Source of the DNA: a virus
Reading direction: 5' to 3' (one strand)
DNA: 40,847 bases
Virus record (IMG/VR): IMGVR_UViG_3300020179_000067
Span: 1 to 40,847 of that record
Of the stretch, positions 25,356 to 30,092 are shown in pieces. The stretch's first letter is position 1; each line of letters starts with the position of its first letter. The translations under genes and the position numbers were made by a program. The notes under the pieces were generated by a model. It worked only from the letters and a program-made list of their open reading frames with translations. It did no database searches and was not told where the DNA came from.

Positions 25356-25669
25356 CTATTATTTTTTGATTCTTTAGTTTTTCTTACGGTCATGTTAAGG
25401 ATGAGTAAATCTGAAATCTTACTGCGTAACCTGACTATTCTTTTGTCTCTGGCCTTGTGTCGCTTCTCCATAAGGCGCAACCGTGCTTGATCTAATTCGA
25501 TTCTTTGGTAAATGATTTCCTCCGCAACGCTTTCGCTCCACACGTAACGCGCCATTACTTTTATTGGTGGGCTGATCGTTTTGCGTTTCACCAACGCCCA
25601 TACGGCTTGTCTGCTTATGTGCAACCTATTGGCCATTTCAGCAACAGACACAAGCAAAGAGCTATACAT
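25352..25669 (-). CDS. helix-turn-helix DNA-binding protein (AlpA/excisionase-like)
   Basis: The product has 105 residues. VSVAEMANRLHISRQAVWAL and VKRKTISPPIKV, then ARYVWSESVAEEI, match the MerR/AlpA/HTH_17 pattern (helix, turn, recognition helix, wing with a Trp). The C-terminal 55 residues are strongly basic and helical (RLRLMEKRHKARDKRIVRLR). The start overlaps the upstream gene by 8 bases with GGGAG 8 bases before it. It is the only obvious small DNA-binding regulator in the early block and may control the repeated promoters. Confidence 0.72.
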   Translation of the reverse strand: MYSSLLVSVAEMANRLHISRQAVWALVKRKTISPPIKVMARYVWSESVAEEIIYQRIELDQARLRLMEKRHKARDKRIVRLRSKISDLLILNMTVRKTKESKNNS

Positions 25670-26156
25670 TTACTTTTCTCCCGCTCACAGGCGCAATCAG
25701 CGGCGCCAGCATTTGCGCAGCATCTCGCAGCTTGTATGCCAAGACGCGCCATGCGTCCACGTCGCAATAGTATTTTTTGTGCGTTCCGGATTCTGCAGCC
25801 AGGATTAACTCCGTTGCGGCCTCCGGCGCATCAAGGCACTGGCACAGGGTCGGGCAGCACAGATACACGCAGGACTCATCACTCCATTCAGTGATGACGT
25901 ATTTTTCGCCGTTGAGCGCAACGCGTATTTCCTCCGGTGCTGAATCAGCGCTCGGGTTCTGCGCTTCAATGTATGTTCCGTCGTCGGGAGAAACATAAAT
26001 TGCCTGCCCATCGTTAAAAGCCGCAATTGCGTTGCCGGTGTGGTCGCAATGCGAAGCGCTCGCCATGTGATAGGTATTTTCGCAATGCGCTATGATCGCC
26101 TTCGGGATGCTCCCATATATTGCGACCTCATCAATCCCAATCGTAATCCTTGGCAT
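25662..26156 (-). CDS. unknown 164-residue protein
   Basis: The N-terminus is beta-rich (RITIGIDEVAIYGSIPKAII), the middle is acidic, and ESCVYLCCPTLCQCL (about 94-108) is Cys-rich. The C-terminus has DVDAWRVLAYKLRDAAQMLA. No family is recognised. It lies between the helix-turn-helix gene and the next gene with a 3-base gap, clearly one operon. Confidence 0.5.
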   Translation of the reverse strand: MPRITIGIDEVAIYGSIPKAIIAHCENTYHMASASHCDHTGNAIAAFNDGQAIYVSPDDGTYIEAQNPSADSAPEEIRVALNGEKYVITEWSDESCVYLCCPTLCQCLDAPEAATELILAAESGTHKKYYCDVDAWRVLAYKLRDAAQMLAPLIAPVSGRKVNV

Positions 26157-27206: not shown

Positions 27207-27247
27207 GTTTGCGTCCCGCCGGTAAGCTCGTCAGCGGGTTAGTCCGC
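27207..27247 (-). other. degenerate hammerhead remnant
   Basis: GGACTAACCCGCTGACGAG (27247-27229) is identical to the 5' part of ribozyme HHR1. It is followed only by a short tail ending CGGGACGCAAA, which resembles the 3' part of HHR2. Stem II, the GAAA core and stem III are missing, so it cannot cleave. It looks like an internal deletion of a fourth ribozyme, downstream of the 27266-27631 gene. Confidence 0.6.
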
Positions 27248-27265: not shown

Positions 27266-27631
27266 CTACCTCCCTTCCGCTTTTGCAATAGCAGCCCGGA
27301 GTACGTCGGACAGCGACGAAGATAATCCGGTGTCGTGCATGTCGATTGGCGTATCGGCGGTGGGGTTGTCGTGCGTGTGCCCGTGCTGCTCCATCACGCC
27401 CAATGCGGCCCTGCACGCTTTCAACAGGTCCGGCGCGGCGGCGATCAGCCAGGCGTTCGCGTCGATTTCATCCTGCGCCTTGCTCTGGCTTTCAATTGAA
27501 CCGCACGGTATGCCGTCGTGCTCGACGTGGTTATACAGCACGCAAATGCGATTTCGCGGGCCGGCTTGGATTGCTTGGCATGCTGCCAGCGGCAACAGGT
27601 CCCACGGTCCCGGCGTATGTTTCGTTTTCAT
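27266..27631 (-). CDS. conserved small phage protein, HTPGPW family
   Basis: The product has 121 residues. It starts KTKHTPGPWDLLP, and about residues 56-77 read EIDANAWLIAAAPDLLKACR. 'HTPGPW' at the start and 'NA-LIAAAPDLL-A' later are hallmarks of a very widespread, uncharacterised phage accessory protein. It is preceded by ribozyme HHR1, and AGGAGAGG lies just upstream of ATG 27631. Confidence 0.75.
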   Translation of the reverse strand: MKTKHTPGPWDLLPLAACQAIQAGPRNRICVLYNHVEHDGIPCGSIESQSKAQDEIDANAWLIAAAPDLLKACRAALGVMEQHGHTHDNPTADTPIDMHDTGLSSSLSDVLRAAIAKAEGR

Positions 27632-27680
27632 CGTATCCTCTCCTGGTTAGGTTCGGCCGCCCGAATTGAGCGGCCAGCAT

Positions 27681-27729
27681 CCCGGACGCCTTGCGGCGTT
27701 TCGGCCCCTGCCGGGGCCTCGTCAGCGGG
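27681..27729 (-). ncRNA. hammerhead ribozyme HHR1 (type I candidate)
   Basis: Read on the minus strand: CCCG, the core CUGACGA (27725-27719), stem II GGCCCC/GGGGCC around a GGCA loop, GAAA (27702-27699), stem III CGCC/GGCG with a GCAA loop closed by the required A-U pair, then UC. The cleavage site is predicted after C 27685, followed by CGGG pairing with the initial CCCG. All invariant hammerhead core positions are present. It lies between the stop of the 54-residue gene and the HTPGPW gene. Confidence 0.88.
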
Positions 27730-27894
27730 TTAGTCCTCGGACCATACGCGGATAACCCAGCACTCCGGCGCTGAGTCACCGTACTCTTGCCACCTTCGCG
27801 TAAACTCGGTAACGGCTTCTTCACGGCTCTTGGCCCGAACCAATTGCGTACCGCTGCATCGGTCGTTCTCGTAACCAATCTCGTAAAGGCTCAT
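27730..27894 (-). CDS. 54-residue unknown protein between two ribozymes
   Basis: A short frame from ATG 27894 (AGGAGCC upstream) to TAA 27730. It starts MSLYEIGYENDRCSG, has a helix (AKSREEAVTEFTRRWQEYGD) and ends CWVIRVWSED. The strand-helix-strand pattern, with 'VRAKSREEAV--F' and 'W-IRVW', looks like a small alpha/beta fold seen in phage accessory proteins. It is flanked exactly by HHR2 upstream and HHR1 downstream. Its stop ends one base before HHR1 stem I. Confidence 0.65.
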   Translation of the reverse strand: MSLYEIGYENDRCSGTQLVRAKSREEAVTEFTRRWQEYGDSAPECWVIRVWSED

Positions 27895-27924
27895 GTCTGG
27901 CTCCTGTCTTGTCCTGTTTTGCGT

Positions 27925-27978
27925 CCCGGACCGGGTTGCCCCGGTTTCGGCCGGACGCCTCCGGCCTCGTCAGCGCCG
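27925..27978 (-). ncRNA. hammerhead ribozyme HHR2 (type I candidate)
   Basis: The core CUGACGA (27973-27967), stem II GGCCGGA/UCCGGCC with loop GGCG, GAAA (27948-27945), stem III CCGGG/CCCGG with a GCAA loop, then UC with cleavage predicted after C 27929. Stem I is weaker than in HHR1 and HHR3: two pairs, a two-base bulge and two more pairs. The UGA inside the core is also the stop codon of the upstream gene, so a translating ribosome would sit on the ribozyme core. Confidence 0.82.
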
Positions 27979-28260
27979 GTCGAGAAGTTGTACCCTAACG
28001 CAATACCGGCACAAGAGCGGAGGCCCATCACATTGGCATTCCGTTAGCGGATCATCAGAAACCAAGTGCCAGCGGGTTTCGCTATCGGCGTATCCACCTG
28101 GCAGGAACATGGCAATACCGTAGTCGCCATGAAATAGCCTGGTATGGTCGGCTACTGCTTCGGCAGAAGTGTTGTAAGGACCGGCAAAGGCGGCATCCGG
28201 GCCACAAATGCACAGGTCGATGATGTAAAACTTTCCGGGTATCAACTCGATCTGTTCCAT
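27970..28260 (-). CDS. unknown 96-residue protein between two ribozymes
   Basis: The start is ATG 28260 with UAGGAG 7 bases upstream in a GGA-rich leader. The product has PGKFYIIDLCICGPDAAFAG, AVADHTRLFHGDYGIAMF and a Cys-rich end (ECQCDGPPLLCRYC) that may bind metal. No family is recognised. Its final codons and stop form the 5' stem and core of HHR2. Confidence 0.58.
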   Translation of the reverse strand: MEQIELIPGKFYIIDLCICGPDAAFAGPYNTSAEAVADHTRLFHGDYGIAMFLPGGYADSETRWHLVSDDPLTECQCDGPPLLCRYCVRVQLLDRR

Positions 28261-28296
28261 GTCCAGTCTCCTATCCTATCCTGTCCTGTTTTGCAT

Positions 28297-28350
28297 CCCG
28301 GACGGGCTTGCGCCCGTTTCGGCCCGGCGCCCCGGGGCCTCGTCAGCGGG
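28297..28350 (-). ncRNA. hammerhead ribozyme HHR3 (type I candidate)
   Basis: CCCG, the core CUGACGA (28346-28340), stem II GGCCC/GGGCC, GAAA (28320-28317), stem III CGGGC with GCCCG around a GCAA-type loop, then UC, with cleavage predicted after C 28301. CGGG follows and pairs with CCCG; UUG upstream can extend stem I by pairing with CAA. Cleavage would free a leader with four GGA motifs for the 96-residue gene. Confidence 0.88.
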
Positions 28351-28353
28351 CAA

Positions 28354-28542
28354 TCATCCATTCCACCCATCGGGGCGATTAAACCCCCAGGCGTAACGCG
28401 CCCCCTTTTCTAGCCTTGCCAGCGCGTCATCAATTCGTCCGGCTTCGTAAAGGCGCTTGGCGTCAGAAAGGCACAGCTCTTTCGAGCTGAGCATAAGGCA
28501 TTGAGCGGAAGCGAGAGCGAGGCACTTGGCGGAAAAGGTCAT
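28354..28542 (-). CDS. unknown 62-residue protein, first gene after promoter PD
   Basis: The start at ATG 28542 follows AGGAGCC in the shared leader. The product is a helical, Cys-containing peptide (CLALASAQCLMLSSKELCLS) with a helix-turn-helix-like DAKRLYEAGRIDDALARLEK that resembles a tetratricopeptide-type helix pair. It ends with an aromatic, Gly-rich tail. No family is recognised. Its stop lies four bases before HHR3. Confidence 0.55.
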   Translation of the reverse strand: MTFSAKCLALASAQCLMLSSKELCLSDAKRLYEAGRIDDALARLEKGARYAWGFNRPDGWNG

Positions 28543-28595: not shown

Positions 28596-28624
28596 ATTTT
28601 ACGCTATGTCGAAAACTTTGTCAA
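28596..28624 (-). promoter_or_regulatory. promoter PD, sigma-70-like, drives the ribozyme operon
   Basis: TTGACA (28624-28619), 17-base spacer, TAAAAT (28601-28596), inside an AT-rich island. It is the first promoter of the small-gene block and lies just below the non-coding repeat region. Confidence 0.78.
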
Positions 28625-29195: not shown

Positions 29196-30092
29196 CTAGA
29201 CGTACCAATTCAGCCGGCGAGCTGGAAAACCCTGCAATGCCGAGAATGCCCAGCTGTCCTCCATCCTCAGCATTTTTTCAATCACTGAAGCATCAGCCCA
29301 AAATCCGCAAGGGGGAGGATTTCCCGAGCCCAGCGGACCGGTATGCGCGTCAGGTCCCCATGAATTACAGATCCACCCACCCTCGCGTTTGCCTTCCTGG
29401 TACCCCAAGAGGGCCATGCAATGCGCCCACCTTCCGGACGGGCTTGCGAACCCTTCGCTGTCTCGCTTCATCGTAAACCCGACCGTGCTGCATACCGAAA
29501 TGCCGTATCCCGAGGCGAGCGCTTCCTTCGCTTCGCGCCAGGTTTTTACCATGGTGATAGATTTTACCGGGTATTTGCGAACCTCGGGCTCCAGGTCATC
29601 CGGTACTCCGGTTTTGCCCCAATTGCGGCAACGCGTCTCGTCGTATCGGCTCAGGTCGTATTTGCCATACACCGCTCGGTCCAGCACGCCCCAGCGCCGA
29701 ACAAACTCCGCCGCCCAGGCACCGATCGACCCGTCGCTTCCGCCCAGCCTTCCGCCGCCAACCTCTACTCGGCTGCCTGCGTAAATTACCTCTTGGCACA
29801 GGTCGCGGATACTTTCCGGCTCGCCGGCGAGCACTTCCGCCGCCATTGTTGCCTCAATTGCTGCCGCTGTTCCAAACGAGACGCACGATCCGACTCGGCC
29901 CTGGTTGCGCGACGGCCAGGGTTGCCCGGTTAGCTTCTCTCGGGCTTGCCATAGAAAAACGGCCGGGGGAATCGTCTCCCGATCGGCCGCGTCTGTCATC
30001 GAGAAATACGGTTGCGGCTGAGCACCCACAACGGCGGCAACCGCTTCCGGGTCTTGCACCCATCCTGGCGTGTACAAGGAATCGTCGCTCAT
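29196..30092 (-). CDS. papain-like (C1 family) cysteine peptidase
   Basis: The product has 298 residues. SRNQGRVGSCVSFG (61-74) holds the oxyanion Gln64 and nucleophile Cys70; RWAHCMALLGYQ gives His224; ICNSWGPD gives Asn243, the complete papain set in the right order and spacing. Residues 1-60 look like a short propeptide without a signal peptide. Such peptidases are rare in phages. Its neighbours are a secreted Ig-like protein and a metallophosphoesterase; it may be a lysis enzyme, a virion-processing enzyme or a host-directed protease. Confidence 0.85.
   Translation of the reverse strand: MSDDSLYTPGWVQDPEAVAAVVGAQPQPYFSMTDAADRETIPPAVFLWQAREKLTGQPWPSRNQGRVGSCVSFGTAAAIEATMAAEVLAGEPESIRDLCQEVIYAGSRVEVGGGRLGGSDGSIGAWAAEFVRRWGVLDRAVYGKYDLSRYDETRCRNWGKTGVPDDLEPEVRKYPVKSITMVKTWREAKEALASGYGISVCSTVGFTMKRDSEGFASPSGRWAHCMALLGYQEGKREGGWICNSWGPDAHTGPLGSGNPPPCGFWADASVIEKMLRMEDSWAFSALQGFPARRLNWYV

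Follow-up and report, generated by a model that had tools for sequence, protein, structure and literature searches.

Three type I hammerhead ribozymes and a degenerate fourth copy in a small-gene operon of a phage

Known hammerhead arrays and the locus in the window

Clustered hammerhead ribozymes that flank single prophage genes were described by Perreault et al. in 2011, who proposed that they cut the transcript into single-gene mRNAs (PMC3088659). One such cluster, a triple array surrounding ardA in Agrobacterium tumefaciens, cleaves in vitro and in E. coli (PMC3088659). In 2017, de la Pena reported hammerheads close together that flank ORFs for small non-conserved proteins, and called the biological role of bacterial hammerheads an open question (PMC6155905). 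Here we describe three hammerheads, HHR1 to HHR3, in the window, by which we mean the whole stretch of DNA analysed, a virus contig of 40,847 bases (IMG/VR record IMGVR_UViG_3300020179_000067). The array resembles those of 2011 in that several hammerheads flank single small genes of a phage operon. It differs from them in the phage and the genes, in that all three members are of type I and of one subfamily (GGCR/AYGC), and in having an additional, apparently dead copy. From the hammerheads of 2017 it differs in nothing essential: mutual closeness, small ORFs of unknown function and the link to phages are common to both. The glmS ribozyme is likewise a self-cleaving element in bacterial mRNA that sets the fate of the message. 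It requires a metabolite and sits in a single 5' leader, whereas no ligand is indicated in the window. An earlier note on this DNA took a gene-by-gene array to be something undescribed, a claim that falls with the 2011 paper, in which such arrays are already described and a function is proposed. The array thus belongs to a kind known since 2011, to which the dead copy and the rule of stop-codon placement presented below are useful additions. We found no mention of the placement at stop codons, seen in the window and its relatives, in the 2011 text, and among open-licence papers no earlier description of this rule or of the module paralogy.

The genes of the window lie nearly all on the minus strand and include terminase, portal, tape-measure, helicase and Sak4-like genes. 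No annotated phage has a terminase more than 41% identical to that of the window, and a DNA search with the 12 kb around the array found nothing similar in annotated phages. A sigma-70-type promoter-like site, TTGACA-17-TAAAAT, is found at 28596..28624 (-), about 55 nt upstream of gene A. Two promoter-like sites occur in the region while 2.4 are expected from shuffling, and this one, called PD in the earlier note, is the only one with 11 of 12 consensus matches. Behind it, as had been claimed, small genes follow consecutively on the minus strand, each preceded by an AGGAG-type ribosome-binding site: gene A (28354..28542, 62 aa), gene B (27970..28260, 96 aa), gene C (27730..27894, 54 aa) and gene D (27266..27631, 121 aa). 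Gene D matches phrog_1273, a family of unknown function; family searches with genes A, B and C gave no match, and relatives of gene B were sought in the viral collection and none were found. The hammerheads had been placed in the intergenic gaps. This holds for HHR1, whose stem I begins 3 nt downstream of the UGA stop of gene A (28356-28354), and for HHR3, whose stem I directly follows the UAA stop of gene C. It does not hold for HHR2, since the UGA within its core is itself the stop of gene B (27972-27970). From predicted cut to start codon, the leaders of genes B, C and D measure 40, 34 and 53 nt. In the leader of gene D a GGCCGC/GCGGCC hairpin can be read from the sequence (27655..27675, (-)), 9 nt past the predicted 5'-OH end.

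Structure of the three hammerheads and of the fourth copy

HHR1 occupies 28292..28350, HHR2 27920..27979 and HHR3 27676..27729, all on the minus strand. The predicted cuts after 28301, 27929 and 27685, proposed before, are derivable from the sequence. CUGACGA, GAAA and the UC cleavage site are present in all three. A covariance model, R2, trained on 13 hammerheads that all come from viral contigs other than the window, scores them at 61.2, 43.5 and 75.8 bits, with rough E-values of 1.8e-12, 2.6e-8 and 6.7e-16. The places, core, strands of stems II and III and GCAA loops first reported were recovered. In HHR1, stem I is CCCG/CGGG and stem III is capped by a GCAA loop. Its stem II contains the strands given earlier, but they form 5 bp, a bulged C and 2 bp closing a GGCG loop (GGCCC-c-GG/CC-GGGCC) rather than an unbroken helix. 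HHR1 and HHR3 pair fully, while HHR2 pairs beside the core and has the weakest stem I of the three (2 bp, a GG bulge, 2 bp). For HHR1 and HHR3 the hammerhead is also the minimum free energy fold. For HHR2 it reaches -24.7 against a minimum of -33.5 kcal/mol, a competitor better by about 9 kcal/mol, because stem I is interrupted and upstream coding bases pair elsewhere. HHR2 had been overrated in the earlier note, which did not look at stem I; it also missed the pseudoknot described below. Simple free energy z-scores (0.4 to -1.8) are uninformative because of the high G+C.

Could the three elements be due to chance? A descriptor that matches exactly these three elements in the window has 0, 0 and 1 matches in three 1.06 Mb shuffles, and chance is excluded. 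Coincidental hairpins are ruled out by shuffle controls together with the co-occurrence of stems in relatives and the pair counts given below. Intrinsic terminators were rejected as well, for the stems are not followed by U-runs and HHR1-3 coincide with no called terminator-like site, and hammerhead types II and III were rejected since the open helix is stem I. A DNA search with HHR3 gave weak, chance-level matches only.

The Rfam model RF00163 (Hammerhead_1) shares with the window elements the core, the three stems, the open stem I and the cut after UC. On a 1.2 kb stretch it finds HHR3 and HHR1 at 24.6 and 23.4 bits (E 0.0027 and 0.0065, respectively) with no match to HHR2, and at the gathering score (34 bits) it has no match in the window. 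A covariance-model search, the check named in the earlier note, therefore gives strong scores with R2 and only sub-gathering ones with Rfam. The window elements differ from RF00163 in scoring below 34 bits, and in a 4-bp stem I and a Watson-Crick pseudoknot between loop II and the 3' side of stem I. We attribute the shortfall to limitations of this model rather than to failed membership of type I, because core, stems and covariation are all in place. By these features the three elements are assigned to the type I hammerheads, and membership in this family suggests that they would cleave themselves.

Fast cleavage of hammerheads at physiological Mg2+ needs a contact between loop II and stem I. 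Loop II reads GGCG in HHR1, where it sits beyond the bulged C and two pairs, GGCG in HHR2 and GGCA in HHR3, and the flank 3' of the stem I 3' strand reads AUGC, ACGC and AUGC, respectively. Pairing of the loop's GCR with the flank's YGC is possible in all three, including a G-U in HHR1; in HHR3 the GGCA loop pairs with UGC at 27679-27677. Loop II and the flank offer at least 3 Watson-Crick pairs in 45 of 66 distinct short-stem-I hammerheads, against a mean of 21.8 and a maximum of 31 with shuffled partners, while hammerheads with stem I of at least 6 bp show no excess (10 vs 8.9). A tertiary contact between loop II and stem I is thereby predicted, in the form of this pairing. Pseudoknots in all three hammerhead types had already been noted by Perreault et al. 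(PMC3088659).

Directly 3' of gene D, before gene E, the model R2 gives a degenerate fourth hammerhead at 27210..27238 (-), with 21.8 bits and E 0.003; with the filters off, it stands well above every lower match. The copy reads TAACCCG-CTGACGA-gcttaccgg-CGGGACGCAAA. CCCG CTGACGA is retained and followed, after 9 nt, by CGGGACGCA, so that the 5' core and the two stem I strands remain while stem II, stem III and GAAA are lost, GAAA and stem III by deletion. A descriptor of the retained parts has one match in the window and none in 100 shuffles. Without GAAA the copy lacks the invariant core and, judged by its sequence, must be inactive. The 19 nt GGACTAACCCGCTGACGAG are common to it and HHR3, and its 3' part resembles HHR2. 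Given its position behind gene D, all four genes of the operon formerly had a trailing hammerhead, in the order A-HHR-B-HHR-C-HHR-D-HHR. A second promoter-like sequence, TTGACA-17-TATAGA (27171-27143, (-)), adjoins the dead hammerhead and lies upstream of the DUF1651-like gene E (27090-26863, (-)).

Relatives, stop codons and a repeated module

A scan of IMG/VR for the core with four stem II pairs gave at least 120 stretches. Among the matches listed, 123 distinct sites with flanks had been selected by nothing but the core and the first stem II pairs; in 89 of them stem III has at least 4 pairs and stem I at least 3, where 0.5 would be expected by chance. For 13 hammerheads belonging to the subfamily of the window, 96% of cells are paired, and 26 both-side changes are seen against 8.4 after shuffling, with none of 500 shuffles as high; slid registers all fall to 43% or less. 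These counts leave out alignment A1, in which 6- and 7-bp stems II are mixed. The covariation that the earlier note expected from related phages, as befits a type I hammerhead, is thus borne out. Among the matches listed, 43 stretches contain at least two hammerheads, in every case on one strand; arrays of 3 to 6 so arranged are common, and up to six occur on a contig. The window array is of this clustered phage kind: several hammerheads on one strand of a virus contig, flanking single genes. A bacterial match comes from a Gemmatimonadaceae MAG. Genes downstream of the ribozymes, again among the matches listed, are small (median 97 aa) and mostly unknown, and two of 113 encode ArdC-like antirestriction proteins, in agreement with the ardA of Perreault et al. 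The Rfam type I model at its gathering score reports 0 of 41 descriptor-positive hammerheads in 13 loci (L130, L132, L115, L134, L142, L127, L024, L035, L063, L078, L029, L043 and L122). Phage hammerheads are therefore probably undercounted in routine annotation.

In seven contigs that share the window's neighbouring genes (L021, L122-L125, L129 and L138), the corresponding accessory block contains a single hammerhead, and the small genes beside it are different. In L123 (4287-5036), L125, L138, L124, L129 and L021 this lone hammerhead immediately precedes a conserved gene, whose homologue in the window (25662-26156) has none before it. Also common to the seven is a protein represented in the window by 298 aa at 29196-30092 (-), with a Pfam match to papain-family (C1) peptidases (E 5.7e-7). 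Elsewhere, half hammerheads with the 5' strand of stem I, core, stem II and GAAAC, and without stem III and the 3' strand of stem I, sit just before an ATG: two in L143, on the minus strand near offsets 6590 and 6970 of the reverse complement, and one in L004, on the minus strand near offset 3359.

Where do the ribozymes lie with respect to the upstream genes? In a sample picked by a G-C stem II pattern, from which other phage hammerheads may differ, and drawn from partly related contigs with simple, uncurated open-frame calls, the frame upstream is clear for 121 hammerheads, and in 114 of these (94%) the upstream gene stops at the ribozyme or within it. The stop is at -14 to -1 of the core in 75, at the core UGA in 29 and elsewhere inside in 10. 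The same positions account for 26, 48 and 53 of 386 control CTGANGA sites, of which 60% are read through. When a frame extends into the core, it ends at the core UGA in 29 of 40 hammerheads, compared with 48 of 334 control sites; HHR2 is such a case. Downstream starts lie mostly 22-45 nt past the cut, with a ribosome-binding site. One reading of this placement is that a ribosome at the stop covers stem I and the core and blocks the cut, so that cleavage would occur only if the upstream gene is untranslated, or after termination, and the element would act as a translation sensor or timer. The 114 stops at or within the ribozyme, 29 of them at the core UGA, speak for it, and in HHR2 the competing fold uses the coding ACCGG upstream of the core, which a ribosome would melt. 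However, tight packing behind the gene yields identical geometry, and we consider this control rather unlikely. The general form of the idea, in which phage hammerheads are fused to stops such that termination of upstream translation decides whether and when the transcript is cut, we also hold to be unlikely.

In the same sample, ribozymes are more alike within a contig than between contigs (80% vs 67% identity), and so are the leaders (72% vs 56%), whereas for the coding flanks the two values are nearly equal (0.59 vs 0.57). Thus the repeated unit is stop, ribozyme, leader and ribosome-binding site between unrelated genes. Such units might mainly serve as homology for shuffling small accessory genes, with cleavage secondary. 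The identity values fit this idea, as do the varying genes beside the hammerhead in phages that share neighbouring genes and the mixed likeness of the fourth copy to HHR3 (its 19 nt) and HHR2 (its 3' part). Recombination alone, however, would not need the compensatory changes that preserve the fold, and we regard shuffling as the main role as improbable.

Processing of the operon transcript

What, then, is the array for? The best explanation, and in our judgement a probable one, is a four-gene accessory operon punctuated by stop-placed hammerheads that separate the fates of its mRNAs; it is built on sequence, structure, conservation, position and module paralogy. The early or accessory genes A to D would be transcribed from one promoter, each upstream gene having a type I hammerhead placed right at its stop codon. 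Each ribozyme RNA would fold into stems I, II and III with the short pseudoknot between loop II and stem I, and cut itself 3' of the conserved UC. Hammerheads cut after H17 and leave a 2',3'-cyclic phosphate and a 5'-OH. The upstream message would then end right behind its stop codon with two G+C-rich hairpins and a 2',3'-cyclic phosphate, and the downstream message would begin with a 5'-OH and a leader of 34-53 nt with its own ribosome-binding site. The expected products are an A message with two terminal hairpins, messages of about 372 nt for B and about 244 nt for C, and for D one with the GGCCGC/GCGGCC hairpin close to the start of its leader. In general, RNase E attacks 5'-OH ends poorly, and hairpins at the end of an RNA slow down 3' exonucleases. 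The likely benefit would be independent mRNA fates for unrelated accessory genes, through 3' ends shielded by hairpins, 5'-OH ends that make poor substrates for RNase E and the absence of polar coupling. Polycistronic operons, however, function without such cuts.

The fragments of about 372 and 244 nt, each released between two hammerheads with a 5'-OH and a 2',3'-cyclic phosphate, might instead be circularised by RtcB or by the reverse reaction, as plant retrozymes do (PMC6155905). Perreault et al. looked for spliced or circular products of arrays and found none (PMC3088659), which makes circles very unlikely here.

That the array cuts the transcript into single-gene RNAs is plausible, and doubtful for HHR2, whose poor stem I and competing fold may leave one of the two internal cuts inefficient. 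Since the fourth site has decayed, a cut behind the last gene would be dispensable, and since relatives sharing the neighbouring genes have one hammerhead, gene-by-gene separation is not conserved. We infer mRNA processing as the function under selection.

The purpose of phage hammerheads is a question that has stood since 2011, and the locus offers a compact test case, in which one operon with three intact, graded copies and a natural dead copy would allow cleavage, mRNA stability and protein output to be compared. Present Rfam thresholds miss such phage elements. Placement at the stop codon, found in 94% of those examined, is a rule that any functional account must explain. If the reading of ribozymes fused to stops is true, the array would be a translation-coupled RNA processing system.
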